Source: Membranipora membranacea
Lineage: Eukaryota > Bryozoa > Gymnolaemata > Cheilostomatida > Membraniporidae
Direction: 5' to 3'
DNA length: 64,000 bases
Assembly (NCBI GenBank): GCA_914767715.1
Contig: OU612071.1
Span: 12,257,493 to 12,321,492 of the forward strand
In this document: piece by piece, positions 24,728-53,118 of the stretch
How positions within the stretch are numbered: the stretch's first letter is position 1
How the letters are laid out: each line of letters begins with the position of its first letter
Notes under the pieces: generated by a model
Seen by the model: the letters and a program-made list of their open reading frames with translations, nothing else
What the model was told of the DNA's origin: nothing
The model's database searches: none
Position numbers and translations under genes: made by a program

Positions 24728-24926
24728 ATGCCTAGACAAGGACGAGAAAGCTCTCTCAACAAGAATAAGGTGTTAATCGCTGGGTTGACACTGCTGCTTG
24801 TATCTGGATTCATCCTTGTAGGAGCGTGCTGTGGGCTTGTACTCACCCAACTGGAAGAGCTCAACATGAAGATGAGCGACATGGAAGGAAAGATTCGTCA
24901 AAATACTGACACAATCAACGACCTAG
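24728..24926 (+). CDS. Gene A exon 1: cytoplasmic tail and signal anchor
   Basis: Encodes a 12-residue basic head (RQGRESSLNKNK), then a hydrophobic segment of about 26 residues containing LTLLLVSGFILVGACCGLVL, then the start of the coiled coil (QLEELNMKMSDMEGKI). Basic residues before and acidic residues after the membrane segment predict N-in topology. Ends at donor GTAAGA in phase 1. By eye the coding bases match gene B at roughly 65-70%, less than the non-coding bases flanking the exon (about 87%). Confidence 0.8.
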
Positions 24927-27900
24927 GTAAGATAATACCACAATCACAGTCTAAAGATCATCAAATACCCTTGTAGGGGAGTATTTGACTTGAATGAAGA
25001 TATGTTTAGTTAACTTCATGCAAGCCTGCACCGAGTGTCAGCTAGTTGGTAGCTTTTATAGAATAATACTTGACCATTCTAGGGCGCATTTCTTCAGATC
25101 TTGTGACTGCTGTGTATTATAGTGCATTGAATGGTATTTATATCAAATTTAACCAATCGTCAATGCTAAAATATGTTGCAAAATTGATTGAAGATTGTAA
25201 TAATGATGATACATACATGATTTTCATTATTTCAACGTAAAAACAGGGATGAAATTTAACTCTCAACTTTGTTACATTGCAGCTTCAAATTCCATTCATT
25301 TGTGTGTTATGTATACGCATAGTACATGGAGTGGAAGCGCCACACTTTGGCCAAGCCATGCCAACTTTTTCCAGGTCCAACTTGGTCCATTTCAAATTAG
25401 ATTCCATTCAATCCTAAACTAGGCCAACACAGGAGGTAAATACACCCAAAGGTGCTGGGAGCTTAGGCAAGGGATCGTGTAAGCTCCCCCAGTGGGATAT
25501 GAAGCCACAACCGATGGCACCATCTCAACTTTGGAATGGTGAGATGGCGCTATTGGTTATTGGTTGCCATACAATTCATGACACATGAGTTGTGGCTCCA
25601 TTCAGTCATTCGCCATGACAAGCAACAAGGGTATTGTCGTGTGAGCTATCAACTTAGATTTCAGAAGAAATCCATCCAGTTTATTGTTAGCTTCTCATTT
25701 TCAATTGTTGACTCTCTGTGTATCACATCATGTCCCCATCATGTTAACATGATGTTAATAAATCCGGTAGTTAATAAAGTTCATAATAATAACATGCATG
25801 CTTGCAACTATGATAAATATTATATTATTGTTGTCAAGTTCATGAATGTTAGAATCCCATTACTCAAGTAGTTAAGTGTTCTCAAACAAACAAATTTACA
25901 ACGCTTCCGCTTCCGACCAAAATTTAACAAGTACAATTGTTGTGGACAATAGTCGGCAACAAGTTGGAAGTTTGTTGAGTTGATGCAATGACTATCATTA
26001 TTATATTTATTAAAGGTGGTACAACAAACTTATTTGGTTTAAGTGGCCGCGTGACAAGGCTAGAGGCTTAATAAATTAAGTTGGACAATTAAAAAGTGTA
26101 AATTGTTATTTTAATTGTAGAACGTTACATGAATCAGAGTTTGGCAGAAATTATGAAGCAGCAAAAGGAGAATGACGACGTATTTCAAAATCTCAGTGAG
26201 GGTTTGCTATATACCATTCCACTCCATGACATCATCAGTTACTGAATTCCATAGCAACACATTCAATATTGTCACAGTTTCATATCAAAAGTCGACTTGG
26301 ATCATTGAATAGTGCATTATTAGCAATCAAGCAGCTGTATTGTAGCAGAAAAGTTGTAAAGATTGTCAGCCACTATAGGCCAGGTCGTCAGCGACGGTCC
26401 TACTCAATCTTTCAGGTTTATTTTCACTTGAATCAAGACGAAAGTTACTGTCAAGTGACAGCAGGGAGAATGGTGACAGGGTATAGTGATTTTGTTACCA
26501 TGTTGCACATTGAAATGGCCAATTGACGGTGAGCTAATGATTATGTTTTTTGAAGGTTACCCAACCAAACAACCAGGAGGAGACACCACCGTTCAAGGAC
26601 ATCAAGGAGTGAAACATCAACTGTACCAGCAACTCGGTGAGAGCTCACAAACTCATAAGATTCTGCAAATATCTCAGTTCTTCAATTTAATCATAATTGG
26701 GTGGTTTTACTATTTAACATACCCTATAGGAGTTTAGTTTTCGCGGCATTTAGGATTCGCTTTTCGCGTTTTTGCCTAAGTAGCAAAATTAAGTGTATCT
26801 TAAATTAAACTCACTCACCATAGTTACATAAACAATGTACAATTATACAGGAAAACACCTTCTCTAAACATGCAAGGTTGTGTGGTGTAGTGGTCCAAGT
26901 GTCTGCCTTGCTATCAGGTGGAGGGTTATGCCCTGGGTTCGAATCCCAGCTTGGACATTTTTTTTTTAATTTTCACTAGTAAGCCTACTAGTGAAATTTA
27001 GTACTAGCGAATTTTAGTACCAGGTCCAGATAGCGAAATTAAACTCTATCTAAATTAAACTCCTATATGGTAGATTGATGGAAAGAAGAAAAGCTGCAAT
27101 GGTGTGTCAGAAAAAATAGAATAGAAATAAAAGTTTTCTCGAGTCTAGATAGACTACGTTCGATTCAGTGATCCTACATTCTGGCGGGTCTTTCAATTAG
27201 AATGATCATCGAATTTTCAAGCAAAGGTATCACTATTACCCCGCTCAAAATTATCGCTGATTTGACCTTTATGCAAGAATAATTTGCTCCCAAGTCGCTC
27301 ACTCTGAACGTTGTAGCTCTCTCAATGACTAAGCGATTTGTGGACCAGACCCTAGCGATAAGATCGCAATTTTGGCTGTCTTTAATTGTAATACTCTCCT
27401 TGGTCAGTTTAATTCTATTGGTGAGCCACCTGCACATAGGAAATAGGACCATGTGCTCTCATGTATTTAAAATTAGGAGTCACTATGATTGTAAACCGTG
27501 GGAGAAGTCATTGATATACATCCTTGTATATGCCTGCGAACGTGTGAAGTAGAATCAGAAGTCAGGCTGGCCCTTAGGAGGATGTGATGTATCCTAGAAG
27601 CTAGGATGGGTTCTGCATCAAATGTAGGGTTGTAACAAACTATGTCCTGATGATGCTGATGCTGAATCATAACAACTTGAATACTTATAATTCTGAGTGA
27701 TGTTTTAATAATATGATATAATACATAAAGGTGCATTCAAATACCAAATTTATTTCCCTACCATACCCCGATAAGTCTTAATGGTGCTGAATCTTAATAA
27801 TGACAATCTCAGTATACAGTTAATTTTTCTCAAGATTTAGGCAATTTCAATATTATTTTGAGACTAGCTTCTATCTACAATGGGAATATGAGGCCATTCT

Positions 27901-30900
27901 CGCAATCTAATATTCGATTTCTCTGGATTGCAGCTATGTCACTCGAGAGATTTGAAACAAAGATCAGCAACCAAGCGACCGAAATTGCCAATTTCAGAAC
28001 GGATTTGCAAGCAGCCGACGATCGATACAAAGGTACATTCAAATGCCAAAACTATTTCCCTATTATACCCCGGTAAGTCTTAATGGTGCTGATTCTAATT
28101 AATGAAAATCTCAGTATACAGTAAATTTTTCTCAAAATATAGGCAATTTCAATACTATTTGGAGACTAGCTTCTATCTACAATGGGAATATGAGGCCATT
28201 CTCGCAATCTAATCTCATTTTCTTTGGATTGCAGCTATGTCACTCGAGATATTGGAACTAAAGATCAGTAACCAAGCAACTGACATTGCAAACCTCAGAA
28301 CAGATTCACAAGCAGCCGATGCTTCAATGATCGTAGACATCACATCGCTAAATGAATCTATAAATCATGAAATCTCACTTCTACATACCATGTTGGAAGG
28401 AACGGTTAACGCCTCTGATAGCATGTTGTTCCACAAAGCTAAGTCACATCCTTCCACACCCTCGATAGAGATGATTGACCTACTGCACACCAAGGTTGAG
28501 AATATGAGCACTGCAATAGTTGAGGTTCAAGACTTCATCCATAACGCTACAGCACTCATGACATCAATCAATGAATTGGGTTCAAGGGACAGAAATCTAT
28601 TGTATAATCAACTAAACAACTTAGAAATTCATCTAAATGGTACAAGCCGTGATCAGCAGAATATGCGAGAAAGCATCAACTCCTTGAACACACAGTTAGA
28701 TAACCTGGAAAAATCCACACCTACGGCAATGGATGAAAGCTTGCAAAACTTCGCGAAAATCTTCAACAAGACGCTTGAAAACATTGAATCAAAGATGAAC
28801 CAACACATTGCGATGATGGAGTCAATAAATGACACGGCTTCGGCTCAGAGGAACACCTTGTACATACAGTTGAACGAGATGATGGCCTCAATGAACGATT
28901 CGGCCTCGGCTGAGAGGAACTCCTTGTATGTACAGTTAGAAAACCTGGATAAGTCCACTACAATGGCAATGGCTGAAACCTCCCAACACATCTCGAACAT
29001 CAACATGACAATTAATCAACAGACAGCAATGATGGAGTTGATGAATGACTCAGCGATGGTAGAGAGGAAAACCTTGTACACACATTTAGACAACCTGAAT
29101 GAGTCAACAACTACGGCGATGGATGAAGCCGCTCGAAACATCTCGAACATCAGCTTGAAAATTAATGAACAGACATCAATGTTTGAGTTGATGAATGATT
29201 CGGCCTCCGCTGAGAGAAACTCCTTGTACGTACAGTTAGAAAACCTGAATGATTCAACAACAACGGCGATGGATCAGTTGTATACTCAACGAAACACCTT
29301 CTTAACACATCTTAATGAGCTCACAACAATAGCGATTGATGAAAACATGGACTTCTCAAGTGCCTCTGCTTTGGTACAACCCTACTTTTGTAAGTTAATT
29401 GAGTCATTCATATGCAATTTGATCCCACGTTTCGAATCGGAGGCATCTAATGATTTGTCCGATTCTGATATGAATGAATGCGATTTTCCTGATGAATTTT
29501 AGGTTATGTATTATGAAACGCAGCCATAGGTCATCCTTGTTGGGACAATTCTGGCAGGAAGAGCGTCCATGAGCAAGGGCTCCTGTGTACCAAAATTAGT
29601 CATTGGGTCATTATCAAGTTGTTATTATGCATTGCTGGCCCCAAGTACTCATGTTAAACACTAGGTTCCGCTCCAAAAGTGTGTCATTGGTTACCATATT
29701 TTGTCACGATATCAAATCAATCATCCTCTAGCAGTCCATTGTGTCGAAACTATAATGGTAAGGGATGTCGATCATTGTGCTCGAAATTTACTGAGAACTT
29801 TGCGTGTTTTTCTGCTCATGCAATGCAATCAAGACTTTATTGATAATGTCCAATAACCATGACCTTTTGCTAAAAGACCATTCATTGAGCCATGATTCTT
29901 GGCTAGATGCTAAAGTGGATTATGATCTCATCACTGAGGTTGGGCACCTTAACTCTATTGTGCTATTCTCAGGCACTTTCGCATATGTGGCCTTTATGGC
30001 GATCCCTCATGTCGATCCTCAATGTTGATGCTGTAAAGTTTGTGATAATCTTCAATGCATTTTTACAACATTAAAACGTCGACGATCAGTACTACATAGG
30101 GTGAATAATGATTATAATTATGTTCAAAGGCGGTCAATGTACCGATGAGTCAAGCCCATGTACACTTGGAGAGTTTGACGAACTCCTCTGTCAGCGGGGT
30201 TTCCTGCAGTCGCATAAAAGATATGGGGAAAGAAGTTATTCAAATTTACTCCGTTATTCTACAATACTAAAGAATCCAGGATTCAAAGGATTGAGCATAA
30301 TATTCCATGCGTATGAGGTTCGTTGAGTAATAATAATAATAATAAATAATAATAAATAATAATAAAATATGCCGAATAAGATGTGATACAAAATATCAGC
30401 CTCAAAGTAAGTCTTCAAGTCTATGCCCCACACTGATAGCTAATGCGTCTGGTTACGGGACAAATACTCAATAGTGTGTTCAAGCCTACATGCGGTTGAA
30501 GCCCTTTTCACCAGATGTTTCTAATAAAATTAGCCATATAATTATACTTATTGCTCCAACAATTATTAGCTCAAATCCCATACATGTACAATCTGCATCT
30601 TTTTTTCTTCTTTCGGCCGTTTGATATAATTTCAGATAAATCAGGGACATTCTGATCAAAGATTTTCTACTGTTGATCAATAAATTCACAATGGTTTCAC
30701 ACTATTAGAATATATTAGAAGCACTAGTAGTGCAGATCATACAGAGAAAACCGATCCCTTGCCGAGCACTCATTAATTTGTTTTACTATAATAACCCCAA
30801 GATGGAAATCTACTCGAATGCGCAATAGTGGCATAATTTGTCGCCCTAGATACAAATGTGAGAGCAGTCGCTAATCAAGAGAGAGTATGAGTGTCATATT

Positions 30901-31289
30901 AATTTATTTTGCATTGCATATTGCTTCATATTATTACGCATTGTCGCTTATAGGTAGAAGAAGAATATGACTGGCTGGAAATCGGGATTGCTGATAAACG
31001 CTACCAGAGATGCGACAACTCTGTTGATCCTTTGATTTACAACTTTAACGTTTCAGAGGCTGACGATATCTACGTAACTTTTATGTCTGATTCTTCTGGA
31101 ATTAGACCTGGTTTTATGATTGAGTTCAACTTCGAATTAATCCCTAATACGGAATCAGCATACAAAGCAACCATAGATCATATTAAGTGTATAGTTTATG
31201 AATCGCCTCAAGCATTCCCTGATCCCTGGTCAACGGACACTTTCACATCTTCAACTCCTGAAACCATTGCCGACCCTGACGGCAAGTAA
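24728..31289 (+). CDS. Type II membrane coiled-coil/CUB receptor, gene A
   Basis: Seven-exon model: 24728-24926, 26121-26195, 26556-26636, 27934-28032, 28235-29389, 30130-30317, 30954-31289. The coding total of 2133 bases is divisible by three and gives 710 aa. The first five introns join in phase 1 and the last, within the CUB, in phase 0. Order: basic cytoplasmic N terminus (residues 1-14), signal anchor (about 15-40), short stalk exons (41-151), long repetitive coiled coil with many N-x-S/T sites (152-536), CUB domain (about 537-673), and a Ser/Thr/Pro/Asp-rich tail. No cleavable signal peptide is seen, so I infer type II topology with the CUB outside the cell, like scavenger-receptor or collectin-type stalked proteins. 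CUB domains are extracellular protein- or glycan-binding modules. An exon present in gene B (47243-47344) survives here near 26016 only as a stop-containing remnant. The start was chosen as the first ATG in frame with the membrane segment; an upstream out-of-frame ATG lies at 24717. The ligand is unknown. Confidence 0.8.
25440..25560. repeat. tRNA-like inverted pair in gene A intron 1
   Basis: Two arms, AACCGATGGCACCATCTCA and, 12 bases later, TGAGATGGCGCTATTGGTT, are inverted copies of an A-box-like tRNA 5' segment placed head to head. The left arm continues outward into GATATGAAGCC. Probably remains of two SINEs in opposite orientation. Similar head-to-head pairs occur in gene B intron 1 (44.6-44.76 and 45.1-45.28 kb). 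Confidence 0.5.
26725..27068. mobile_element. 344-bp TA-type MITE in gene A intron 3
   Basis: Starts TATAGGAGTTTAGTTTTCGC and ends AAATTAAACTCCTATA, a terminal inverted repeat. Sub-terminal copies of the same motif lie further in (TAAATTAAACTC at 26803-26814, AAATTAAACTC at 27036-27046). Copy B reads through at about 48540 without it (AGCATAGGTCGATAGG against A's TAGATTGATGG after the element), so the insertion is private to A. TA flanks suggest a Tc1/mariner-type target. It encloses a tRNA-like sequence at 26880-26957. Confidence 0.75.
26880..26957 (+). tRNA. tRNA-like sequence (probably not a functional tRNA)
   Basis: Has an A-box-like TGGTGTAGTGG, a good T arm CTGGGTTCGAATCCCAG (B box GGTTCGAATCC) and a 3' strand CTTGGAC followed by A and a T10 run that could end Pol III transcription. 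The acceptor does not close: GTCCAAG, which would pair with CTTGGAC, lies after the A box rather than at the 5' end. The anticodon loop appears to be 9 bases. I read it as a tRNA-derived promoter or pseudogene carried by the surrounding MITE. Confidence 0.4.
27180..27402 (-). mobile_element. MITE, GGGGGTCTTTCAATTAG family, reverse orientation
   Basis: Begins CTGGCGGGTCTTTCAATTAG and contains, as complements, the family blocks for AGTGAGTGATAATTTTGAGC, the GGGAGC block and the GCGATTTTGGC block. It ends CTTTAATTGTAATACTC. Lies in gene A intron 3, at the equivalent position to the copy at 48650 in gene B, so it predates the duplication. Confidence 0.75.
27728..28331 (+). repeat. 302-bp exon-intron tandem duplication in gene A
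   Basis: 27728-28029 and 28030-28331 align throughout: both begin AAGGT(G/A)CATTCAAAT, share TTCTATCTACAATGGGAATA, then a TTTGGATTGCAG-type acceptor and the exon start CTATGTCACTCGAGA. The first exon copy (27934-28032) has gained a donor, GTACAT, where the second continues into the long stalk exon. Gene B has only one copy. A 99-base phase 1-1 exon was thus added to gene A without shifting the frame. Confidence 0.9.
28235..29389 (+). CDS. Gene A stalk exon: repetitive glycosylated coiled coil
   Basis: Exon of 385 codons between acceptor TTTGGATTGCAG and donor TTTT/GTAAGT. It is built from repeats of about 49 residues, with core MNDSASAERNSLYVQLENL followed by STTTAMDEAxxNIS and a turn back to MELMNDSA. 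Leucine/isoleucine heptads predict a multimeric coiled coil. N-x-S/T sites recur in each repeat (NDS, NES, NIS, NMT). If the donor at 29390 is not used, the frame runs on 37 codons past 29389 to a stop ending at 29502, giving a CUB-less form. Gene B has one additional repeat of about 43 residues. Confidence 0.85.
30130..30317 (+). CDS. Gene A CUB domain, first exon
   Basis: Enters in phase 1 after TTCAAAG and reads GQCTDESSPCTLGEFDELLC with four cysteines (CG.QC, PC, LC), then KNPGFKGLSIIFHAYE, the buried strand that in CUB domains precedes the second half. Exits at a weak donor GTTCGT in phase 0. Matches gene B at about 65% of residues. Confidence 0.75.
30954..31289 (+). CDS. Gene A CUB domain, second exon, and tail
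   Basis: Starts after CTTATAG in phase 0. YDWLEI is the typical CUB 'YDYLEI' strand, RYQRCDN the C4 region, and YVTFMSDSSGIRPGFMIEFN the conserved 'V.F.SD.....GF...Y' strand. The cysteine expected before YDWLEI is missing (EEEYD), while gene B has it. Past the CUB comes TESAYKAT, one more cysteine, and a tail of about 30 residues rich in Ser, Thr, Pro and Asp. Only about 40-45% identical to gene B in residues. Confidence 0.75.
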   Translation, partial: VEEEYDWLEIGIADKRYQRCDNSVDPLIYNFNVSEADDIYVTFMSDSSGIRPGFMIEFNFELIPNTESAYKATIDHIKCIVYESPQAFPDPWSTDTFTSSTPETIADPDGK

Positions 31290-31455
31290 AATGATGTTGT
31301 GATGTCTAAGCCTGAGCAATGAGAATACAACTTTAACTGAGTTGTGTAGATGAAGTGGTTTTTGGTGTGATGAAACATGTAACACATTGAAAGCATTGTT
31401 GGCGAATACTTTCATGAATGTCTACGGGTTCAGGTTTCAGTTCACAAGATTTGAT

Positions 31456-31461
31456 AATAAA
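31456..31461 (+). promoter_or_regulatory. Putative poly(A) signal, gene A
   Basis: AATAAA lies 167 bases past the stop codon, the first canonical signal after it. A T/GT-rich stretch follows within about 50 bases. Confidence 0.4.
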
Positions 31462-31504
31462 ACGATACATGTAGAATGAAAGCCAGCTCACTTTATCTCT
31501 TCAT

Positions 31505-31855
31505 TGTAAAAGCCTAAATCTAAGTCTAAGTCTTCATTGCGGAGAGGGTTACCCCTCTAGAGTACAGGTGCAGGGACCCATGGTACTCAAGCCGCACCCT
31601 ATGCCCTTGCCCGCCGGAATTCCGGCTACTCTTTATATCGAAGAGGCAGAGGGGGATATTTTTACTGCATGAGGGGTGTGCAAACACACAGTGGACCTCC
31701 TGTAGTTTTAGTCCCATTCCGCAAGGACCTGGCTAGGATGAATGGCGCGCCAGTACCAAATCAGAAATGACTGCCGGTGCTGGGAATTGAACCTGTACCT
31801 CACAGATCGCAAGTCCGCCCCTTAACCATCAGACCACTCCCGACTGTAAGAGCCT
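31505..31855 (-). mobile_element. 329-bp tRNA-derived SINE with 11-bp target duplication
   Basis: Flanked by TGTAAAAGCCT (31505-31515) and TGTAAGAGCCT (31845-31855). Read on the minus strand, the head has an A box (GTGGTCTGATGG) and a B box (GGTTCAATTCC) in a tRNA-like segment. A conserved-looking body of about 250 bp follows, with a (TTAGAC)-type 3' tail. Copy B lacks it at about 53417. No coding capacity; it would have moved using a LINE's reverse transcriptase. Confidence 0.85.
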
Positions 31856-32391
31856 TTACATTGACTTTTATGAACACAGTAATAGAAAAAGAAAGTATAC
31901 CCATCACTACATCCAGAAAGGTTTTGCACATGTCTTGAGTGCTACACAAACCTTTAAGTTAATTACCAACGACAAGTATTGTGAACAATATGGATCTGAT
32001 AAATTTAAGAACAGTCTAAGCCAATTAATGAGGATTCTCTGTGATAACTTCTCTCTCCAATATTCCTTGTGAGGTTTTTGCAATGGTTGTAGTGATCAAT
32101 TAATTCTTCTAAAGTTGTAAGTGACTGACAATGAAAGTCTTACTAAGATGTGTAGTGGTAGTTGTCTCCCTGTTTTTCAACACTTATATTACAGTTAAGC
32201 AGAAAATCCTAGAATTTTCAGGGATCACTCTTTTCTATCTCGTTGGCAAAGGACATCAATCCTTTTGCACTGGCACAAGCTGTGCTGTTCAACCACAGTT
32301 AGGTTTTTTGTCATTAATAGTAACTGTTATAAGGATATACCTTCAATGATAAAACAGCGTTCTCCAAGTAAGAAATACTCAGTGTTAAGAT

Positions 32392-32461
32392 GGCTGCAAG
32401 GCGAGTTAGTGATATAACAATGTGATATTTGATAATGCGCTGCCCTAACTCACATTGCAGC
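32392..32461. repeat. Fold-back 1 (CAATGCGAGTTAG family)
   Basis: Arms GGCTGCAAGGCGAGTTAG and CTAACTCACATTGCAGC pair around an AT-rich centre. In copy B the same fold-back (left arm GCTGCAATGCGAGTTAG at 53999) has been split by the 2-kb element at 54058-56067. Confidence 0.75.
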
Positions 32462-32593
32462 TATTGCATTGGGACTTTCACCTTATCATAAAGACTGAAA
32501 ATGTCAGACAGTGAGTTTGGTTGCAAACATGTACACCACGGTGTAATTCATATAAAAAGAAGCCTGATTGATGTTAGTCTAAGTGATCAGACA

Positions 32594-32674
32594 GCTTCAA
32601 TGCGAGTTAGGAGAATTACATTATCAACCATTCCCATGGGTGATAATGTAATACCACTAACTCGCATTGGAGCC
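32594..32674. repeat. Fold-back 2 (CAATGCGAGTTAG family)
   Basis: Arms of about 33 bases, GCTTCAATGCGAGTTAGGAG... and ...CACTAACTCGCATTGGAGC, enclose TTCCCATGGG. Related in sequence to fold-back 1, 130 bp away. In copy B only the left arm and loop remain (56222-56268). Confidence 0.8.
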
Positions 32675-32862
32675 ATCTGAGCACGTAGACTAGGTTGATG
32701 AATCCATTCAACCAAAAAGAACAAATCTTGTGCTATGCTGCCAACACGCTGCTATAAACTAGATCAAGCATGATCCGACTGGCCTGCATTTAGAGTTTTG
32801 AGCCACAGCTTGCCATTAAATGGGAATGATCGAAATGTGGGTTGGATCATACTTGATATAAT

Positions 32863-33110
32863 CGAAGACTCTAACTTGGGTTCGAATTCCCGGTGGCCGC
32901 AGATTTGTTTCGATGTTATTTTTTCTCAGCTCTATCATGGAAATGGCTGCATATTTCGAGATCGAGCCAAGAGGTGACAACTCAGCTCGATGAAGGCCGA
33001 CCTTGAAATTCACATGGAAACATGGTGAATGGCTCCCATCAGTGAGTGAATTTTCAAAATTCTTCATTTTGATGCGCATATTATATTATTCGGGCGGACA
33101 GGCAGTGCGC
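32863..33110 (+). repeat. tRNA-headed repeat, copy A (head truncated)
   Basis: Begins within the tRNA-like head at GAAGACTCTAACTTGG, continues through the B-box region GGGTTCGAATTCCCGGTGG, and into a body matching 57760-57970. Copy B keeps the full head (57687-57756). Copy A has lost the first half of the head together with about 1.25 kb that lies upstream of it in copy B. Confidence 0.65.
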
Positions 33111-33944
33111 CTTGCAATGCTATAATTATAATTTTAATAGAACCTCTGATTTGACCGGTGCCTCTGAGGTAATCTAATAACGGAAACATTCACATAAATT
33201 TTACCTTTTTGGTGTGCCGGATCGTCTCAGTTTTGTTAGTTACTTGTTTTGCTCACAATTCCCTGTACTTATTAATTAAATTATTATTGCGCATCGAGCA
33301 TAGTAATTAACACCCATTATTTTAATTACAGTGGACTAATTCAAAAAGATATTTTGTGTGTAAAATGCATTGATATCAAAGGGTCATATTATCGAAAAAG
33401 ATAATTTTCCTAAGCAGAATGTGCACAAAATCCGAAAAAATATCATAATATAAAGTGTCAGCTGCAAAGTCATGGTATCAATACCTCATAAAATCCAACC
33501 ACAAATCCAACCATCAAATGACAGCTGAAGAAGAAAAAAGTTATACTAAATAGGGTCATAAAAAAACATAATTTGATCAGCAACAAAAAAAGTATATATG
33601 GCTGGAGAAATATAAAAAAAAACGAATATTCTGTGTAGATAACAGCGAATAAACTCGACCTTAACCGAATTAACTACCTAGTGATTAGCATACCGAATGC
33701 GGTTATAAAATAAGATAAGTTTATAATCAGTTTATCAGCGATGGAGTCAAGTTGCTTTGTGTCACCCTCGTATACACCACATGGTTACAATATTGCAATG
33801 TGGGTTCTCCGGTTTACGGAGTCACCACATTAACTCTCTAAGACTGAGATCTGTGCTCACGAGCTTGGGACGATGATTCTCGCTATGTGACATTGTCTTT
33901 GTACAATTATCTAGATACGATCTCATTTAATTCGAGCGCAAAAA
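33111..33944. other. Non-coding, conserved between copies A and B
   Basis: Aligns with 57970-59270 apart from two MITEs inserted in copy B. No gene seen. Confidence 0.5.
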
Positions 33945-35935: not shown

Positions 35936-35941
35936 TCTTTA

Positions 35942-36019
35942 TACAGTCTAACCACTCATAGGTTGATGTAAGACTAAAGAGGAGTTAGCTATACCAAGGA
36001 GTTGGAGACTCCTAGGTTG
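35942..36019 (+). repeat. 54-bp minisatellite, left fragment
   Basis: One and a half units of the repeat AGGTTGATGTAAGACTAAAG / AGGAGTTAGCTATACCAAGG / AGTTGGAGACTCCT. The array is cut at CCTAGGTTG by the element that starts at 36020 and resumes at 38782. Confidence 0.85.
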
Positions 36020-39254: not shown

Positions 39255-39270
39255 TCTCCGGTGCAACCTC

Positions 39271-40555: not shown

Positions 40556-40735
40556 AGGATGCTTTACAAAAGAAAAATATCACTATCATGTTGCTCAAAA
40601 TTACCATTCACTTGGTCTTGGGGCTCCCAAATCGCTTACTCAGAATGTATATAGTTCCATCAATGAGTGAGCAATTTCTGAGGTAGCGTTCATTAAGTGA
40701 GCGACACAGATTGCGTTTTTGGCTGTTTTTAGTAT
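40556..40735 (-). mobile_element. MITE, same family, reverse orientation, end-truncated (copy A)
   Basis: Complements of AGTGAATGGTAATTTTGAGC and of the TTGGGAGCCCC block are present, ending GCGTTTTTGGCTGTTTTTAG. The outer GGGGGTCTTTC terminus is missing here. The sister at 60936-61135 keeps a little more (TTAAATTAGAATGAGGGATG). Confidence 0.7.
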
Positions 40736-43000: not shown

Positions 43001-43704
43001 GAAAATTTACCCCATGTCATACCTGACAAGTCTCCCTATTTGGTAGGAAGGCTCCCAGTTCATAGGAGTTTTCCATCCCCTCTCTATCTCCCTTTTTCCT
43101 CCGTCTTTTTGCATCCTTCATCCAAAAAATTGTAAACTGGTAAATTTGCCCTCTTTCTTCAATCAAGCAGTTAGAGACAACTCCTGTCGCTTAAATTTAT
43201 CACTCAACTGCATATGTGATTTTTACCTCATCATCTTACCAATTTGGGCGGTTGAGCGGTTTTCACAAATCTTTTCTTGGTGATGACAATTTTAATCACT
43301 CTCAGCTAACATTCACTACTGACACGCCCTTCTACAACGACTGCTTTTTTTTAACACTTTAATTGGCAGTCTAATTCATTCCAGTAGCGGAACGTTTTCC
43401 GAATGGTGCCGAAAAAAAGCGGAAAAGGAAAGAAAGAAAGCTTGTGAATGATAATATAAGTTAAAATGGAAATAGCTTATTCGCATAACTATGAGAGATG
43501 AAATATCTTTGAGAAGAAAAATCCAAAAAATGTAAATGATATTTCCATTATAGTATCGTGCAGAGGCAAAACTTGTTGCAGAGATAAAAAGATAATGTTG
43601 TAATTTCAACAAAAGATATTTGAAAAGTCCAGATTTAAAGCATTTATACCTCAACACACAGGCTCGTTTGGTATTCCATCAGAACAAATAATCTTAGGGT
43701 GCAA
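42252..43704. other. Spacer between duplication copies, no gene seen
   Basis: AT-rich. The 93-codon minus-strand frame at 43376-43657 is Phe/Tyr/Ile-rich low-complexity sequence and not convincing. Confidence 0.4.
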
Positions 43705-44308
43705 TTGGTCAAGTTTATCCAATTGAGAAATCATTTTTTCTTTTTCATAGGCAGAGCTGCTATCTACTGTCAGTTTTGAAAATATGCAAAGCGAAAAATT
43801 CCTAATAACATGCTTGACTCAAAAAATGAAAGCAAAGTGTTTTAGGTGGAATTTGGTATTATTTAGACAATGCTATGTAGTAACTAGCATCAAATAGTCC
43901 TTGTGAACACACACAAAAATAAGATAAAGTTGATTTGATTCTGAGATAGTTCCCCTACTTTGCCTTTGCAATGAACTATTTTGACCCTATAATGACCTGC
44001 TAATTGAAGAACAATCAGCTGAAATTTGACACTTTGAAATAATAAACTTACTTTTGATATTGCCTCAAGGTGAATAAAGAGTAAAATTAGCTCTAAAATT
44101 TGTTGCCAAGTCAATTAATTTAGGTTCAAGTGGGGTAACAATCTGAGAATTTGACCTATTGACCTATTGATATTTAATAATAGAGTCATTTTGATTCTAG
44201 CTTCTCTTTGTGTGCAGTTAACAAAGGTCTACATGCCATTTTGTTTTGTTGTAATGCAGAGAATCCAATAATCAAATTCGTTCCGATCGACACGGGAGTC
44301 GACGAAAG

Positions 44309-44516
44309 ATGGCTATTATAAGACGCGGTCAAGATGTCGTCTCTATCAAAAACAAAACTAAGATGCTGCTTGCTGGCTCGACGATGCTACTTATCACCGC
44401 GTTCATCGTCGTAGGAGCCTGCTATGCGCTTGTGCTGTCCCAACTGGAAGAGCTAAAAGATAAGATGGCCGACATGGAGGGAACAAAACGCCAGAATGCT
44501 GACTTTGAAGACTTAG
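44309..44516 (+). CDS. Gene B exon 1: cytoplasmic tail and signal anchor
   Basis: Head MAIIRRGQDVVSIKNKTK, then a hydrophobic segment containing LLITAFIVVGACYALVL, then QLEELKDKMADMEG, which starts the coiled coil. Donor GTAAGA in phase 1. The start is the first ATG in frame; GTCGAC palindromes lie just upstream. Only VGAC, ALVL/GLVL and QLEEL blocks are well conserved with gene A. Confidence 0.82.
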
Positions 44517-47500
44517 GTAAGATAATACCACAATCACAGTCTAGAGATCAACAAAAACCCTAGTAGAGGCTTACACCAGAGAGTGCTTGGGGCTTGAACA
44601 ATCTACCTTGAAAGCTCCGAAAGAATTCGAACCTACAACTCTAGCGGCAATGATCGCCTGGCAGTGGACAGCAAGCGCGCTAACCGATTGCGCAATCTCC
44701 CCATCCCCAGAAGGTGAGATGGCGCAGTCGGTTAGGGCGCTTATGGGAGTTAATATTAGGAAGACTTCATTGAAGACATGTTTGGGTAACTTCATGCAAG
44801 CCTGCACTAAGTGTCAGCTAGGCGGTAGCTTAGATTAATAATTGACCACTCTAGGGTAGAATTCTTTTGATCTTACGACTGCTGTATATTATATTACATT
44901 GAATGATATTTATTTCAAATTCAAAGACTAGCTTTGAGGCGGCTCTTTCGTAAGACATCATATTCTCCATATTCTGTTCCATCATGTGAGCGATTTCCAG
45001 CTTTAGAATCTAAATATTGATGGAGTTATGGTCTCTCAAACTTTAAAGGAGATGGCTGTCGATCGGCATTTAGAATCCCTACACTAAAAATAGATTCACA
45101 AACAAAACATAATGGGTGCAAGTGGGTGTCGTACCCAGGTCCTTGGGATCGGCAGGCAACGTCACTACCATCGGACCACGACGTCCGGCTATATGAGGCC
45201 ATTGATAATATAGCGCAGTGGTAGCGGCGTTGCCTGCTTGTCAATAAGACCTTGGTTTGTGACCCACATGCACCTGTATTATTATGATATAAATGAGACA
45301 TAGTGTGAGGATTTTCAATGTCGATCGAGAATATGATGTGATACAAAATAGCAGCCTCAAAGTAAGTCTTTAAGCGATCATCGATGCTAAAATATGCTGA
45401 AAATTGATTGAAGTTTGTAATAATGATGATATATACATGATTATCATTATTAGTACTTGGTACAGTAGAAACAGCGCTGAAATGGAACTCTCAACTTTGT
45501 GAAAATCCAGCTTAAAATTTTATTCAATTGTGTGTTAAGTATATGCATAGTATTTAGAACTTTTTCCAGGTTTAACTTGGTCCAAGTCAAATTTGATTCC
45601 ATCCAATACTAGGCCATCACTGGATTCCACCCATAAAATTCTGCATTTATATCTCAGTTCTTGAATTCAATCATCATTGGGTAGTTTGACAGAGTAGCAT
45701 AGATTGAAAGGAAGCAAATAAGCTGCAATGGTGTAGCAGAAAAAGTTGTACAAGTTCTCTAGAGTCTAGATGGATAATGTTTGATTCAGTGTTCCTGCAT
45801 TTTGAAGGTTTTCAATTGGAATGGGCATTGCCTTTTTATTAAAAAGTACCACTATCACCCGCTGAAAATTATCACTCATTTGGTCTTTCGATATGTTCCC
45901 GAACCCCGAAGGTTATAGCTCCTTCCAATGACTAATCTATTTGTGAGCTAGACTCTATCGATAATATAACGATTTTGGCGGTTTGTAACTGAAATACTCC
46001 CCTTGAATGATTGATTGATTTATTGATTGGTTGATTATTTGATTGATTGATCGATTTTATTTCTATTGCTAACATGATATATGTTGTGAAATACTGGGCC
46101 CATGATATTAAAAATGATTGGTTGGTCCCCATACTTGCCAACTTGTACGCATAAAGCGTTTGTAGACGCTTATTTGACACTAATTGAGTTTTAAACGCAA
46201 AACGCTAGTTGTACTCATTTATGGTTTTCCAAACGCCTGTTCATCTAATTAGGCAATCAAAAACGCATCTTTTATCTTTAGTGTTTACTTGGTTGTCATG
46301 GTTAAATAATAGTCTAAAAATCTGGTATTGGCTGCAGAAAACAATGATGTTGATTTACAGTTGACTTTTTACCTGTCCAAGTTTTGCATGAGCCAAATTG
46401 CAACTTTTCTTCAATGAGACACAACATAACTAGTAAACCATTGTAGAATATGGTGGTTCTGCCAACTTCAACTTTCCTTTAATCAGAGTAACAAAGTTGT
46501 CTACCTCCTTGTTGGGGTGAGATAACTCAGATCTCCTGCCCCAGTGTTTCAAGGGCAAACCAGGGAGGATGGGCAAACAGGGTTTCAAATAGCCTGTCTT
46601 GTCCAGACAGGCTAGGTTACAAACAACTTCTCATTTATTATTAGCAGATTGCACCTTACAATGCAAAGGGAAAAAGACTAATGTTGAGTGATCTGCACTC
46701 CTATGCTACTAGGGACTACTTACTGTGATAATAGCATCTTTCGCGCGTAGCGCGAAAAGTTTTTTGGGGCATTTTCTGGTCATTTGAGGCACCCTGGAGT
46801 TTTGTACTCATTTTTAACCATTTTGCAAATTTTTGTACTCATTTTGGAAAAATTAGGTTGGCAAGTCTGGGTCCCATTCTATTGGGGAGCTTCCTGCAAA
46901 TAGGATTGTGTCTTCTCATACATCCAGTTCATTAGAAGCTTCTCATTTTCAATTGTTGACATTTCTATGTAGCACATCATGTTAACATACATGCTTTGAA
47001 CTATAATAAATATTATGTTATTGTTGTCAAGTTCATGAATGTTAGAATCCCATTACTCAGGTAGTTAGGGGTTCTCAATCGAACAAATTTGCATCGCTTC
47101 CCCCTCCCCCCCCCACTAAAATTAAATGAGGACAATTGCCGGGACAATTAGTCAGCAACCCATTAATAACAGCTCAATATTTACCTAAGGCTGGAAGTTT
47201 GTCAAGTTGGTGAAATGACTATCATTATCATATTTATTGAAGGTGGTACCACCAATGAGCCGCACGGAGGCACTGATGTGAATGCTCGCATTGACACCCT
47301 GTCCCGAGCCCAAAAGGAAAACTATCAGATGCTACAACGGTTCGGTGAGAGCTAGTTAACTCTGCACATATCTCAGTTTAAAATTCATTATTCATCATTA
47401 TTGTGTAGTGTCCGTAATAACAGGGTAGTTTCAACACCAACGAATTGAATCATGTATGGCTCAAGTATGTAATTGCCTTTTTCCATTGAAAAGAGCTAGA

Positions 47501-50500
47501 AGGCAAATGTCTCGTATATCACAGGTTATGCAAAAATTGATTAAAAACACGCCGAAGTCCAGTAGAAAAACAATTAGGAATATTTTTAGGCACTACAGGC
47601 ACAGTCCCATGCTTTATCTTTCTTTACCTTCTTTCTCAGAGGGACAGAAAATTTGGTTAGATACCAAGAGTTGTAGATATTGCAGCCGTATTTTAGCCAC
47701 ACTAGCCCTGTCACGGGCCCACTTATTTTGTTTAAGGCTTGAGGAGCTTAATGTTGGTTAATTAAAAAATCTTATTTTGTTTGTAGAGCGGAGTTTGGCC
47801 GCAATTACAAAGAGGCAAAAGAAGAATGACGATGAAATTCAAAATCTCAGTGAGGGTTTGCTATATCATTCCACTCTCAGGACATCATCAGTTCCTGAAT
47901 TCTATAGCTACAAGTTCAATACTGTAATGTCACGCCAAAAGTCTACATGAATCATTGAATAATGCATCATTAGCAATCAAGCAGCAGTGTTGTAATGTAG
48001 TGTAATGTAGCAGAAAAACTGCTGTTATTGTAGGCTATAGGCCAGGTAACCATTGATAGCCTTGCTCCGCGGTCCAGGTTAAATTACAATCCGAATGAGT
48101 GTCAAAATTTGAATGATCAATTATATTGCTATCACTAACTCAAGTAATTGTTAAAAATGCCCAATTGACTGTGAGCTTATGAAAGGATAGGATGGGCTTT
48201 ATTTGTCATGCGATTATACTCTCATGAAAATGACGCAACAAAAATTATCTCAAAAAGTAAGACAGAACTATTTGCTAGCAATTAGCATATTGGAAAAAGA
48301 AACTTCTCTTCAGCCTCTCAGTCCCACTGCGAAATATATATATTATGTTTTATATGTTATATTTATCTTATATTTTTGAAGAATACCCAACAAAGCAGCC
48401 AGTGGGAGACACGGCCGTTCAAGGACCTCAAGGAATGAATAATCAAATGTCCCAGCAACTCGGTGAGATCTCACAAACTAATAAAGTTCTGCACATATCT
48501 CAGTTCTAGAAACCAATCATGATTGGGTAGTTAAACATAGGTTAGCATAGGTCGATAGGAAGCAGAAAAACTTCAATGGTGTATCAGAAAATATGGTAAA
48601 AGTTTTCTAGAGTCTAGATAAACAACGTTTGATTCAGTGTTCCTGCATTCTGGGGATCTTTCAATTAGAATGAGCATTGCCTTTTTGATATAAAGTATCA
48701 CATCACCCGCTGAAAATTATCACTCACTTGGTCTTTCAATCAGACAAATGCGAACTCTAAAAGTTATAGTTCCTTCCAATGGCTAAGCTATTTGTGAGCT
48801 AGACCCTAGCTATTAGATAGCGACATTCAATTCCATATCCTCACCATTAGCTATCTTTTGCCAAACAATGGGTATGCAAAAAATAACCAGTCCCTAGTAG
48901 CATTCTAAGAAAGCCCAAATCAGCGATACTGAAGGGATTTCATTGCTGTTTGCGATTTTGTAATCAAGTCAATTTCCCAGGCTAAATTATTTTTGCTAGT
49001 AGGGACAGCCAATCAAAACATCATCAGACAAGTCCCTGTGCTAAGTGTTCTTCTTTATGATGTTATGATACTATTTCCGTTCCACAGGAAAGATTTAATT
49101 CAGTGGATAGCAATTTTGGCTGTTTTTAACTGGAATCCCCCCTTGGTCAGTACCATTCTATTGGTGAGCTTCCTAGGATTGTGTACTATCATAGGAGGCA
49201 ACTCGAAATTGAGCAATTTGGATGGATCCAACTTTCACGGGGACAAGAAGTATTAAAGGGAAGGCTTTTTGGTATCATTCTTGAGTTCTCATTCTAATTT
49301 AGAAAACTGCCATAAAGTTTATGTACATCATAATGCCCATGTCACCTCAAAGGTGAGATTTGAAGGCTCTAAAAATAAAGTTTTTGGTACAAAAAAAAAG
49401 AGATTTTTTTCTGCCCTTGTAACACTCTCCTTGTCTTGGCAATCAGTTCCAAGACATGACAAATAAAAAAGGTCAACTGAATGAGAAGTTGCCCTCCCTC
49501 AACCAACTAAGGAAAACTTATTGGTATGGAAAACTTAGTACTCCTGTTCACAGCCATTGATAGGCTTTTATGTTATTCACATCTTCTTTCCTTCAATCTG
49601 ATATCCTGTCAGCATGTCAGTATCGAAAGAAACAAGTCTGCTCAAATCAACACTTTCGGTTACAAATGAAGCGCCCCATATTTTTTCCCCTAAAATATGT
49701 TACATTATAAGAAAGAAAAAAGGTACTATTTTAATAACAGTTCATACAAAATAGTACCTTTTTAGTACCTTCCAATCTTAAGTTCGGCCAACTTTGAGTG
49801 AAAATCAGTTGAAACTGTGCCACTTGCTGTTAATAAACCTTATAGCAGTTTTCTAAATTAGACTGAGAAGGCTAGAATGATACCAAAAACCTGATTCCTT
49901 CACAGTCACTTTAAGGGAATGTATTTTTATTCACCAATACTATAGGGGTTGTCTTGTTTTTGTGATTCATGGTGTAAGTAATAGAGAAGAGAGAGAAATA
50001 TGATCACTATTGAACTTTTTCTGGATTGCAGCAATGTCGCTTGACAGTTTGGGAACCAAGATCACTGAACTCACAACAGTATTTGGGCGCCAAGCAACTG
50101 ACATTGCCAATCTCAGAACAGATTTAAGAGCAGCCAACGCTTCAATGATCGAAGACTTCGCATTGCTAAATGAATCTCTTAATTTAGAGATCTCATTACT
50201 ACACAGCATGTTGGACGGAATGGATAACGCCTCTGATAGCATGTTGCTCCTCAAATCTAAGGTACATCCTATCACACCCTCGATGGAGATGATTGACCTA
50301 CTACATACCAAGGTTGAGAATATGAGCACTGCAATAGTTGAGGTTCAAGACTTCCTCCATAATGCTACAGCACTCATGTCATCAATCAATGAATTGGGTT
50401 CAACGGACAGAAATCTATTGTATACACAACTAAACAACTTAGAAAATCATCTAAATGGTACAAGCCGTGATCAGCAGAATATGCGAGAAAACATCAATTC

Positions 50501-53118
50501 TTTGTACACACAGTTAGATAAACTAGAAAAATCCACACCTACGGCAATGGATGAAAGCTTGCAAAACTTCTCGAATAGCTTCAACCATACACTTGAAAAC
50601 ATTGAATCAAAGATGAACCAACACATTGAGAGGATGGCCTCAATGAATGACACGGCCTCGGCTGAGAGAAACTCCTTGTACATACAGTTCAACAACCTGG
50701 ACAAGTCAACAACAATGGCAATGGCTGAAAACTTGCAAAACGTCTCAACTATCCTGAACCAATCCCTCGAAAAAATTGAATCAAACATGAACCAACACAT
50801 CGAAATGATGGCCTCAATGAACGATTCGGCCTCGGCTGAGAGGAACTCCTTTTATGTACAGTTAGAAAACCTGGATAAGTCCACTACAATGGCAATGTCT
50901 GAAAGCTCCCAACACATCTCGAACATCAACATGACAATTAATGAACTGACAGCAATGATGGAGTTGATGAATGACTCAGCGATGGCTGAGAGGAAAACCT
51001 TGTACACACATTTAGACAACCTGAATGAGTCAACAACCACGGCGATGGATGAAGCCTCTCAAAACATCTCGAAAATTAGCTTGAAAATTAATGAACAGAC
51101 AGCAATGTTAGAGTTGATGAATGATTCGGCCTCCGCTGAGAGAAACTCCTTGTACGTACAGTTAGAGAACCTGAATAATTCAACAACCACGGAGATGGAT
51201 CAGTTGTATACTAAACTAAACACCTTCCTGACACATCTTAACGAGCTCACAACAATAGCAATTGATGAAAACATGGACTTGTCAAGTGCCTCTGCTTTGG
51301 TACAACCCTACTTTTGTAAGTTAATTGAGTCATTCATATGCACTATGATCTCATGTTTCGAATCGGAGGCATCTACTGAGTTGTCCGATTCTGATATGAA
51401 TGAATGCTTTAGATTTTCCAGTTGACTTTTAGGTTATGTATTATGAAATGCAGCCATAGGTCATTCTTGTTGGGACAATTCTGCCAGGAAGAGCGTCCAT
51501 GAGCAAGGGCTCCTGTGTACCAAAATTAGTCATTGGGTCTTTATCAAGTTTTTATTATGCATTGCCGGCCCCAAGTACTCCCAAAGTGTGTCATTGTTTA
51601 CCATATTTTGTCACGATATCAAATCAATCATCCTCTAGCAGTCCATTGGGTCGAAACTATAATGGTAAGGGATGTCGATCATTGTGCTCGAAATTTACTG
51701 AGAACTTTGCGTGTTTTTCTGCTCATGCAATGCAATCAAGACTTTATTGATAATGTCCAATAACCATGACCTATTGCTAAAAGACATTTCATAGAGCCAT
51801 GATTCTTAGCTTAATGCTAAAGTGCATTATGATCTCATCACTGTGGTTGAGCACCTTAATTCTATTCTAGGCACTTTCGCATTCAAGCCTCTATAGTAAT
51901 CCCTCATGTTGATGCTCATTGTTGATGCTGTGTAATTTTTGATATTTCATGCTACTTTACAAAATTAAATCATCAACTTATCACTACTACATAAGGTGCA
52001 TAATGATTATAATGTTGTTTAAAGGTGGTGAATGTACCGATGAGTCAAGCGCATGTACCCTTGGAGAGTTTGACAAACTCACCTGTCAGAGGGGCTTTCT
52101 TAAGTCTCATGCTGGCTATGGGCAAATTCCTTACTCCCCTGGTACAAAGACTACAAAACTGAAGAATCCGGGTTTTAAAGGACTGAAAGTAATACTACAC
52201 AAGTTTGAGGTTGGTGTAGTATTTATATGCATGTAAACTTTTATGGTATATTGATTTTTGAATAGTACATCGTTTGATCAGGAAAATGACTCACAATGCT
52301 GCTCTGTGTATGATAGATAGTTGTTATTCTGGTAGAAACTGATAATTTCATTTTAATTCATACTTTTCTAAGCCCATTTCACCAGATGTGTTCGCCGTTA
52401 ATAGTTAGCCACATATTTGAATTTAAGCTCACTATAATATAATTCCAGATAAATAAGGGACATTCTGATTGATTGATCGATTGTATCACTCACTATAAAA
52501 GAAAATTTCTACAGTTGAGCAATTCACTAATTGTTCCCAATTATTTACACATTCAATATTTTGACTGTTAAAATCGAACCTGTGCTACGCTTCCATATGT
52601 TAGAATATAGGAGAATTTGTAGTGCAGTTCGTAATATGAAGAAAAATAGTCCCTGTCAATGCACCCGTTAATTTGTTTTGCTCTAACCCCAAAATGGAAG
52701 TTTGCTCAAATGGGTAGTAGTGGCGTGATTGCCACCTTGATTTAATTGTGAGAGCTGTCACTGTTTAGTCAAGTGAGAGTTTGAATGTCATATTTATTTA
52801 TTTTACCTGATTTCTTGTTGCATTATTGTGTTATATTGTTACTCTTCTCTTCCTTAGGTAGAGGTGTCAACTTATTGTGACGTTGACGCGCTGAACATTA
52901 AAATATCTATCGCAGAATGGTTCAGGTACTGTGGCACTAACATTAGCGATGTAGTATTTTACTTTAACATATCGGATATAGATGAGATCGAGGTATTCCT
53001 TATTGCTAATGACAATAGCCATTATGACGGCTTTATGATTGAGTTCAATTTTGAAATATTCGCTTTTACAGAGTCAGCTTACACAGCAACCAGAAATTTG
53101 ATGTTTTTGGAGGCATGA
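44309..53118 (+). CDS. Type II membrane coiled-coil/CUB receptor, gene B
   Basis: Seven-exon model: 44309-44516, 47243-47344, 47787-47849, 48382-48462, 50032-51315, 52025-52209, 52858-53118. The coding total of 2184 bases is divisible by three and gives 727 aa. Introns 1-5 are phase 1 and the CUB-internal intron is phase 0, as in gene A. Head with Arg/Lys (residues 1-17), signal anchor (about 18-44), stalk to residue 579, CUB from about 580 to the C terminus. Exon 2 (34 codons, GGTTNEPHGGTDVNARIDTL) has only a broken equivalent in gene A. Exons 3 and 4 match gene A exons 2 and 3. Gene B lacks gene A's duplicated 33-codon exon and has one more stalk repeat. The CUB has both expected cysteine pairs. 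No GPI or second membrane signal. The function suggested by architecture is extracellular binding by a clustered stalked receptor; the ligand is unknown. Confidence 0.82.
44570..44760. repeat. Head-to-head tRNA-like inverted pair 1, gene B intron 1
   Basis: On the minus strand AGATTGCGCAATCGGTTAGC begins a tRNA-like unit that runs to GTAGGTTCGAATTC. On the plus strand GAGATGGCGCAGTCGGTTAG begins another, which is cut short. The two A-box ends face each other across about 14 bases. Absent from gene A at this position, where AAATACCCTTGTAGGGG leads directly to TTCATGCAAGCCTGCAC. Confidence 0.6.
44925..45372. mobile_element. About 450-bp TIR element with paired tRNA-like cores
   Basis: Left end AAAGACTAGCTTTGAGGCGG and right end GCAGCCTCAAAGTAAGTCTT are inverted repeats. 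Inside, 45105-45275 holds a second head-to-head pair: minus-strand GTGGTCCGATGGTAGTGACG and plus-strand AGCGCAGTGGTAGCGGCGTT, each followed outward by a tRNA-like remainder. Gene A lacks the insertion. A lone right end (CAGCCTCAAAGTAAGTCTTC) sits in gene A at about 30397. Confidence 0.6.
45810..46006 (-). mobile_element. MITE, GGGGGTCTTTCAATTAG family, degraded, reverse
   Basis: Begins GAAGGTTTTCAATTGGAATG, contains complements of GTGATAATTTTCAGCGGG, and ends ATTTTGGCGGTTTGTAACTG. The 150 bp before it also match the sequence before the 48650 copy (TATCTCAGTTCT, TCTAGAGTCTAGAT), so a whole intron piece was duplicated within gene B. Confidence 0.65.
47345..47786. other. Gene B intron 2 with an unrecognised open frame
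   Basis: A 101-codon plus-strand frame (47456-47761) is Arg/Lys/Ser/Leu-rich with no recognisable domain. It has no counterpart in gene A. I treat it as intron. Confidence 0.35.
48650..49142 (-). mobile_element. MITE copy interrupted by an insertion of about 280 bp
   Basis: Left part CTGGGGATCTTTCAATTAGA to about 48830 (TATTAGATAGCGA), then unrelated sequence. The family resumes at about 49110 (GATAGCAATTTTGGCTGTTT) and ends at AACTGGAATCCCCCC. GATAGC at both joins may be a target duplication. The insert has no recognised coding content. Confidence 0.6.
49143..50031. other. Gene B intron 4, distal part
   Basis: Nothing functional seen beyond a good acceptor, TTTTTCTGGATTGCAG, at its end. 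A near-perfect fold-back (AAAAAGGTACTATTTT and AAAATAGTACCTTTTT) lies at 49708-49763. Confidence 0.5.
50032..51315 (+). CDS. Gene B stalk exon: repetitive glycosylated coiled coil
   Basis: Exon of 428 codons, phase 1-1. Same about 49-residue repeat as gene A (core MNDSASAERNSLYVQLENL), with one further unit containing NVSTILNQSLEKIESNMNQH. Repeats alternate a leucine/isoleucine heptad segment with a Thr/Ser-Ala-Met segment. Many N-x-S/T sites. Donor CTTTT/GTAAGT at 51316. Reading through it leads to a stop ending at 51425, like gene A. About 93% identical in bases to gene A outside the extra repeat. Confidence 0.87.
52025..52209 (+). CDS. Gene B CUB domain, first exon
   Basis: Phase-1 entry after TTTAAAG. 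Reads GECTDESSACTLGEFDKLTC, then a divergent loop (GYGQIPYSPGTKTTK, against KRYGERSYSNLLRYST in gene A), then KNPGFKGLKVILHKFE. Weak donor GTTGGT in phase 0. The four cysteines match gene A. Confidence 0.77.
52858..53118 (+). CDS. Gene B CUB domain, second exon
   Basis: Starts after CTTCCTTAG. YCDVDALNIKI corresponds to the CUB 'CxYDxLEI' strand, WFRYCGTN to the 'rfCG' turn, and GFMIEFNFEIF to the final strand; TESAYTATRN then leads to a short end. The Ser/Thr/Pro tail of gene A is absent. N-glycosylation sites NIS and NFNIS-like positions are visible (TNISD, FNISD). Confidence 0.77.
   Translation, partial: VEVSTYCDVDALNIKISIAEWFRYCGTNISDVVFYFNISDIDEIEVFLIANDNSHYDGFMIEFNFEIFAFTESAYTATRNLMFLEA

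Follow-up and report, generated by a model that had tools for sequence, protein, structure and literature searches.

In this work we describe a family of putative cell-surface receptors in the bryozoan Membranipora membranacea. Two neighbouring members, here called gene 1 and gene 2, lie in a 64,000-nucleotide stretch of contig OU612071.1 (assembly GCA_914767715.1, positions 12,257,493 to 12,321,492), hereafter the window. Each gene is predicted to encode a type II membrane protein whose long stalk ends in a single C-terminal CUB domain, and both belong to an array of 31 copies on the same contig. Our best explanation, to which we give a probability of roughly 0.55, is that of a lineage-specific family of stalked CUB receptors, predicted from genome sequence, that has been tandemly amplified and diversified for ligand recognition.

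Both gene models run through seven exons, with GT-AG at all internal junctions and a closed reading frame. They give 2133 coding nucleotides and 710 residues for gene 1, and 2184 nucleotides and 727 residues for gene 2, exactly as an earlier note on this DNA had proposed (Table 1). The two proteins are identical at 470 of 743 columns (63%, BLASTP). The ratio of nonsynonymous to synonymous substitution rates (dN/dS) is 0.27 for exon 1, 0.38 for exons 2 and 3 together, 0.54 for exon 5, 0.43 for exon 6 and 0.45 for exon 7, and at most 2.1% of the bootstraps reach 1 or more in any exon group compared. The frames of both genes are therefore constrained as coding sequence. The exon sets are not one-to-one. 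In gene 1, exon 4 repeats the start of exon 5 as a local tandem copy (27727-28018 against 28029-28319, 88% in a self-comparison). The counterpart of gene 2 exon 2 in gene 1, read by eye near 26015, is decayed. The stalk exons, 2 to 5 in each gene, are all of class 1-1 with lengths divisible by three, which allows their gain or loss without a frameshift. The exon-3 type of gene 1 occurs three times upstream of array copy L038 (L063 1568-1645, 2872-2949 and 3496-3573), possibly as alternative-splicing cassettes for stalk length.

A single hydrophobic segment stands out near the N-terminus of each protein. The Kyte-Doolittle average over 19 residues (KD19) reaches 2.5 from residue 15 in gene 1 and 2.4 from residue 25 in gene 2, and beyond residue 60 its maxima are 0.86 and 1.32. 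That later part is rich in sequons for putative N-glycosylation, with 18 in gene 1 and 21 in gene 2 where shuffles lead us to expect 9.4 and 11.1. Exon 5 contains about 1% proline and 1% glycine and has a hydrophobic periodicity above the 99% shuffle level, and an AlphaFold model of gene 2 exon 5 is almost wholly helical, at a predicted local distance difference test score (pLDDT) of only 50. The period is 3.6, not 3.5, so an amphipathic, probably helical stalk is safer wording than the coiled coil of the earlier note. The rest of the proposed layout, an anchor segment, a sequon-rich stalk and a CUB head, stands at the level of sequence and supports a type II stalked CUB architecture of predicted membrane topology. 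Weak Pfam matches on the stalk (Snapin/Pallidin, HrpF, apolipoprotein and others) and on the N-terminal part (PI3K iSH2 and others) were below cut-off and were discarded. In the array the anchor exon type is present in eight of the ten short stretches fetched for it, two of the eight being cut by the stretch end, and none was found in the stretches fetched for copies L030 and L033.

The head, encoded by two exons, is in our reading a divergent CUB domain. We base this identity on profile searches with a reversed control and on a paralog, rather than on the single heads of the window. With the full-length proteins there was no Pfam CUB match at E≤1 for either gene. The excised heads score 13.2 bits (gene 1) and 13.9 bits (gene 2) against the Pfam CUB profile PF00431, so the comparison that the earlier note had put forward leaves both below the curated cut-off of 21.4 bits, whereas the head of paralog L054 passes it with 29.2 bits over profile positions 9-110. 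When a profile of the two heads was compared with the PDB, the first 12 of the 16 listed sequences were CUB proteins (E 1.2e-5 to 0.039), although these represent few proteins: four MASP-2 sequences, one cubilin, two PCPE-1, two C1r and three MASP-1/3. The cubilin match (E 1.1e-4) comes from one stretch. The reversed-alignment control found three sequences, none of them CUB, with a best E of 0.023. A profile of 12 array heads is weaker than the two-head profile (best E 1.2e-4 against 1.2e-5); the six sequences that it found at E≤1 comprise four of MASP-2 and two of C1r.

Several observations weaken the case for a CUB. The MASP-2 score in the two-head search sums two domains, the best single-domain E being 0.085. 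PF00431 is matched at E≤1 by four of the 12 array heads, which makes the homology weak for most members, and nothing was found at this level for the L038 head or L058 exon 6. A canonical CUB has four cysteines in two disulfides (1-2 and 3-4), and the second cysteine is absent from all 12 aligned heads; the third is present in 11 (lost in gene 1) and the fourth in all 12. That said, CUBs without one disulfide are known. An AlphaFold model of gene 2 exon 7 alone, half of the domain, has a pLDDT of 62 and no structural match at E≤0.001. The gene 1 head, searched against the PDB with phmmer, gave no CUB among the matches listed. On the gene 2 head the antifreeze protein CfAFP outranks CUB, but this match is weak and was discarded as below cut-off; the reversed-profile control also meets antifreeze proteins.

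A calcium-binding subset of CUB domains uses one glutamate and two aspartates as ligands (PMC10214685). The first aspartate position is invariant in the 12 heads. Read by eye on the same alignment, the second is kept in four of them (gene 1, L038, L039 and L054) and the glutamate position in genes 1 and 2, so that gene 1 alone keeps all three, with a shortened loop.

The two genes are far from alone. The genome searched comprises 339,339,785 bases in 18 contigs, with the window at C7:12257493-12321492. With the gene 2 head as query, exon 6 is found at 31 places within 0.87 Mb of C7 (11.606-12.476 Mb), 27 on the plus strand and four on the minus strand, and genes 1 and 2 are copies L049 and L050. 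The tandem pair of the earlier note is thus indeed a pair of neighbours, but not an isolated one. Outside C7, exon 6 occurs once on C1 and once on C6, one of these contigs holding a further copy and the other an exon-6 remnant. Three weak matches and a short fragment on C11 complete the 69 matches of the gene 2 head. This C11 fragment (L061, 16.58 Mb) is exon-6-like and, together with two weak head-like frames on C3 (L059 and L060, E about 0.01), lies outside the array. Stalk-exon matches adjoin each of the 31 C7 copies (positions matched by hand), with one partial match on C1, and the open frames of the leading C7 stalk matches span 277 to 660 residues. Over about 2.2-2.8 kb, 22 pairs of similar copies were compared. 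The difference is 0.2-1.2% in 14 pairs and 1.6-3.8% in four; in the remaining four, all of which involve L037, it is about 16%. They are not exact assembly copies, though some may be haplotype duplicates. As a separate observation, C3 carries another large cluster (22.76-23.60 Mb, L002-L008), in which canonical CUB exons recur in repeated units over about 0.85 Mb; many among the PF00431 matches listed (at least 162) lie there.

Within the window the two genes lie in a segmental duplication with units of 18-19 kb, whose identity is a mosaic: 59-72% in the 5′ flank and introns 1-2, 91% in intron 5, 58% in intron 6, 47% in the 3′ flank and 82-96% in chosen downstream blocks. The most similar part (40111-42252 against 60506-62710; 92% by blastn, 96% without gaps) carries short repeated open reading frames, two of which were scanned and had no Pfam match above cut-off. 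Synonymous divergence (dS) between the genes is 0.15 in exon 5, 1.08 in exon 1 and 1.29 in exon 7. This contrast points to mosaic ancestry, by conversion or recombination, and not to a fast head. Old and young segments alternate, the pattern that ectopic conversion or recombination would be expected to leave.

The heads of the array are diverse. Among 29 intact heads there are 15 distinct exon-6 proteins, 22 distinct exon-7 proteins and 24 distinct heads. Grouping at 90% identity gives nine exon-6 groups, ten exon-7 groups and 13 combinations; five exon-7 groups are found joined to exon-6 group A, and three exon-6 groups to exon-7 group c. A good example is L047, which joins an exon 6 of the L032 type to an exon 7 of the L036 type. 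Another is the pair L031 and L051, which have exon 7 in common and an identical intron 6 (p 0.000, 595 bases), with the two exons 6 about 13 changes apart. These patterns show reassortment of the two head exons among the array copies. The earlier description of tandem copies with a diverging ectodomain fits the array, where heads differ and exons reassort, but not the window pair, where dN/dS is below 1 in every exon compared.

Selection on the heads was assessed with eight close pairs that form non-overlapping paths on the exon 7 tree, using Fisher's test on rounded counts, which is approximate. The proportion of nonsynonymous differences (pN) in exon 7 is 0.047, against a divergence of 0.027 in intron 6 (p 1e-4; p 0.005 against intron 6 plus 3′ flank). 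In the part of exon 7 that precedes the GFMIEF strand, pN (0.059) lies above the proportion of synonymous differences (pS, 0.026; ratio 2.31, p 0.007), and from GFMIEF onward the ratio is 0.40. The per-column entropy of 24 heads agrees with this split, as the loops are variable and GFMIEF and NPGFKGL nearly fixed. These results suggest diversifying selection on the head loops. Other results weigh against it. For the whole of exon 7, pN is 0.047 and pS 0.037 (ratio 1.27, p 0.23), with pN above pS in half of the eight pairs. The split point was chosen post hoc, after the alignment had been viewed, and two pairs (L032-L038 and L052-L057) carry most of the changes. In exon 6, for six pairs that partly overlap on the tree, pN is 0.050 and pS 0.034 (p 0.20), with pN above pS in three. 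Positive selection between the two window genes is rejected by their dN/dS. Furthermore, one head is identical in five C7 copies and another in two, and the five copies indicate homogenisation, not diversity. Given the post hoc split, the two dominant pairs and the approximate test, the result is suggestive and no proof. An earlier set of pairs gave a ratio of 1.59 for exon 7 (p 0.045) and 0.91 for exon 6 (not significant); those pairs overlapped, and the exon 7 set was replaced.

The same observations bear on a structural or adhesive function, the most probable of the alternatives. The proteins could form a glycosylated surface brush, or filaments for cell-cell or matrix adhesion, with an array maintained for dosage and head variation produced by drift and gene conversion. 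The long repetitive stalk with its many sequons fits this, as do the five identical heads, the dN/dS below 1 between the window genes and the lack of significance in the whole-exon tests. It sits less easily with loops that vary around an almost fixed GFMIEF strand, with an exon 7 nonsynonymous divergence above that of intron 6 in the eight close pairs, and with heads that reassort. On balance we regard it as unlikely, though worth serious consideration.

Returning to a family of diversified recognition receptors, the following mechanism can be proposed, provided that its members are expressed and function as their sequences suggest. The short basic tail would lie in the cytosol and the signal anchor would hold the protein in the plasma membrane. 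A stalk of about 500 residues, amphipathic, helical, repeat-built and N-glycosylated, would probably self-associate and raise the CUB head off the cell. Unequal crossing-over and gene conversion in the array may have multiplied the genes, homogenised some of them and reassorted the head exons, while the CUB loops diverged. The most likely use would be a cell-surface recognition repertoire for differing ligands, such as microbial or symbiont surfaces or conspecific cells. As no signalling motif was seen in the tail, the protein would depend on a partner to signal; alternatively, it may exert its effect through binding and clustering. The recognition role suggested in the earlier note is strengthened by the array, and we still only infer it. 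A more specific version, a non-self recognition locus of about 30 genes with CUB heads assembled in the germline by reassorting two exons and loops under diversifying selection, is offered tentatively, with the odds somewhat against it.

As a sub-case of this explanation, the proteins could serve in gamete recognition or in self/non-self discrimination (allorecognition), which would make the array a polymorphic compatibility locus. A tandem array of variable, reassorted heads is what such a locus might look like, but our findings do not separate it from immunity, and we consider it improbable as a specific proposal. Immune, allorecognition and adhesive uses are not separable on these findings.

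A little less probable again is that the N-terminus is a cleaved signal peptide and that the products are secreted, opsonin-like or matrix proteins. CUB proteins are often secreted, and a hydrophobic segment near the N-terminus also fits a signal peptide. However, signal peptides are usually shorter than this hydrophobic stretch of about 25 residues, which comes after 14-18 residues of basic tail and leads straight into the stalk.

Least probable of all is a pseudogene-rich expansion of mostly decaying copies with few working genes: head exons are damaged or missing in four of the 33 loci (the L028 frame is broken at the start of exon 6, L034 has lost the 5′ half of exon 7, the L044 donor has changed from GT to GA and no exon 7 was found for L058), the L048 stalk lies in two frames of 277 and 189 residues, one stalk match near L029 contains a stop and anchor exons were checked in few copies, but 29 of the 33 loci have open head exons with AG acceptors and a GT donor, 60 of 61 stalk-exon matches are free of stops and the window genes show coding constraint.

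How does the family compare with known systems? In class A scavenger receptors there are collagenous and SRCR or lectin parts, and neither full protein of the window gave a Pfam match to SRCR, lectin or collagen at E≤1. These receptors and LOX-1 (SR-E1) are described as type II proteins that cross the membrane once, with a short tail at the N-terminus and a ligand-binding part outside the cell; all except MARCO also have a coiled-coil part (PMC4493455). The hydrophobic segment and the stalk periodicity of our family would fit this plan, but the LOX-1 head is C-type lectin-like and ours a single CUB. CUB occurs together with collagen and SRCR in two A. digitifera proteins (PMC5119243), and a pair of CUB domains is present in each of the type II membrane proteins matriptase and MFRP (PMC5567652 and PMC4214712). 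The latter two also have SEA and protease domains, or LDLa and frizzled-type ones, whereas neither full protein of the window had a Pfam match to a protease, SEA, LDLa or frizzled domain at E≤1. Matriptase and MFRP are not known to have a long repeat stalk. The CUBs of MASP-2, cubilin, PCPE-1 and C1r share sequence homology with the head, which differs from them in the missing second cysteine, an added Cys-rich hook and its position as a single CUB ending a stalk.

At the genomic level, the 185/333 genes of sea urchins have two exons, and they are not known to encode a membrane-anchored CUB. They form tandem arrays, their diversification is ascribed to gene conversion and recombination and half of the gene sets are under positive selection by dn/ds (PMC1988830). 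A tandem array and mosaic members are shared with our family, the proteins being unrelated. Sponge and sea urchin SRCR genes include large tandem expansions of a receptor domain (PMC10855680); there the expanded domain is SRCR, and here it is CUB. In architecture the family comes closest to class A scavenger receptors and LOX-1, and in genomic arrangement to the 185/333 arrays. Together these comparisons lead us to read the family as stalked CUB recognition receptors.

Within what was searched, the suspicion that this is not a named family holds. No named type II, coiled-stalk, C-terminal-CUB family was found in the literature searched, with most subscription literature outside it. In a collection of 5.8 billion proteins one search gave 117 candidates, none at E≤1, and the best 7987 candidates of a second gave none at E≤0.01. 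DNA pattern scans gave 28, 83 and 14 matches, none of which encoded a relative. In a control search with a mobile-element open reading frame, 12 of 265 candidates reached E≤1e-5; one of these, from a Joint Genome Institute (JGI) source, matches 63% of the query at 98% identity. The collection thus seems to contain DNA of this or a near animal, whose spliced genes are probably absent from it. The parts are of known kinds; their combination and the array are new within the literature and proteins searched.

Table 1. Exons of the two genes and units of the segmental duplication in the window
Feature	Positions	Strand	Remarks
Proximal duplication unit, contains gene 1	24285..42252	+	Self-comparison, block identities
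Gene 1 exon 1: basic tail (residues 1-14), signal anchor (about residues 15-40), stalk start	24728..24926	+	
Gene 1 exon 2: stalk	26121..26195	+	
Gene 1 exon 3: stalk	26556..26636	+	Exon type found three times upstream of L038
Gene 1 exon 4: tandem copy of exon 5 start, phase 1-1	27934..28032	+	Self-comparison
Gene 1 exon 5: stalk, repeat-built, sequon-rich	28235..29389	+	
Gene 1 exon 6: Cys-rich N-terminal hook, predicted first CUB half	30130..30317	+	
Gene 1 exon 7: predicted second CUB half, C-terminal tail, stop	30954..31289	+	
Distal duplication unit, contains gene 2	43685..62710	+	Self-comparison, block identities
Gene 2 exon 1: basic tail, signal anchor	44309..44516	+	
Gene 2 exon 2: stalk	47243..47344	+	Exon type also in L062 and L063
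Gene 2 exon 3: stalk, homologue of gene 1 exon 2	47787..47849	+	
Gene 2 exon 4: stalk, homologue of gene 1 exon 3	48382..48462	+	
Gene 2 exon 5: repeat-built stalk, low-confidence model mostly helical	50032..51315	+	
Gene 2 exon 6: Cys-rich hook, predicted first CUB half	52025..52209	+	
Gene 2 exon 7: predicted second CUB half, stop	52858..53118	+	

Some other features of the window were noted. Upstream of the genes there are duplicated pieces at 18217-18710 and 20697-21192 (93%) and at 18715-19077 and 21373-21678 (76%). At 21206-21472 a frame shows similarity to nuclear protein Es2 (E 1.1e-5), its 25.9 bits falling slightly short of the cut-off of 27, and what looks like an incomplete second copy lies in a frame near 18.7 kb. 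The Es2 similarity and the intron structure are in keeping with an animal source. Mobile-element remnants with matches to YqaJ-type and Mutator-like transposase sequences lie at 5812-6570 (minus strand), 7770-8228 (minus strand, under cut-off) and 11185-11496 (plus strand). In an intron of gene 1, positions 26890-26960 look tRNA-like by eye and are followed by a T run, perhaps a short interspersed nuclear element (SINE); ARAGORN does not call a tRNA there. Rfam gave no match at gathering thresholds.

CUB domains are known mainly in proteases, complement and developmental proteins. If our explanation is correct, the family would be a new format of animal recognition receptor, in which a single diversified CUB on a membrane-anchored stalk is multiplied into a large clustered family, and it would be a CUB-based counterpart to the immune or allorecognition arrays that are built on Ig or lectin domains. 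Several pairs of copies have nearly identical introns and head exons that differ and recombine, which would make the selected sites and the ligands directly testable.

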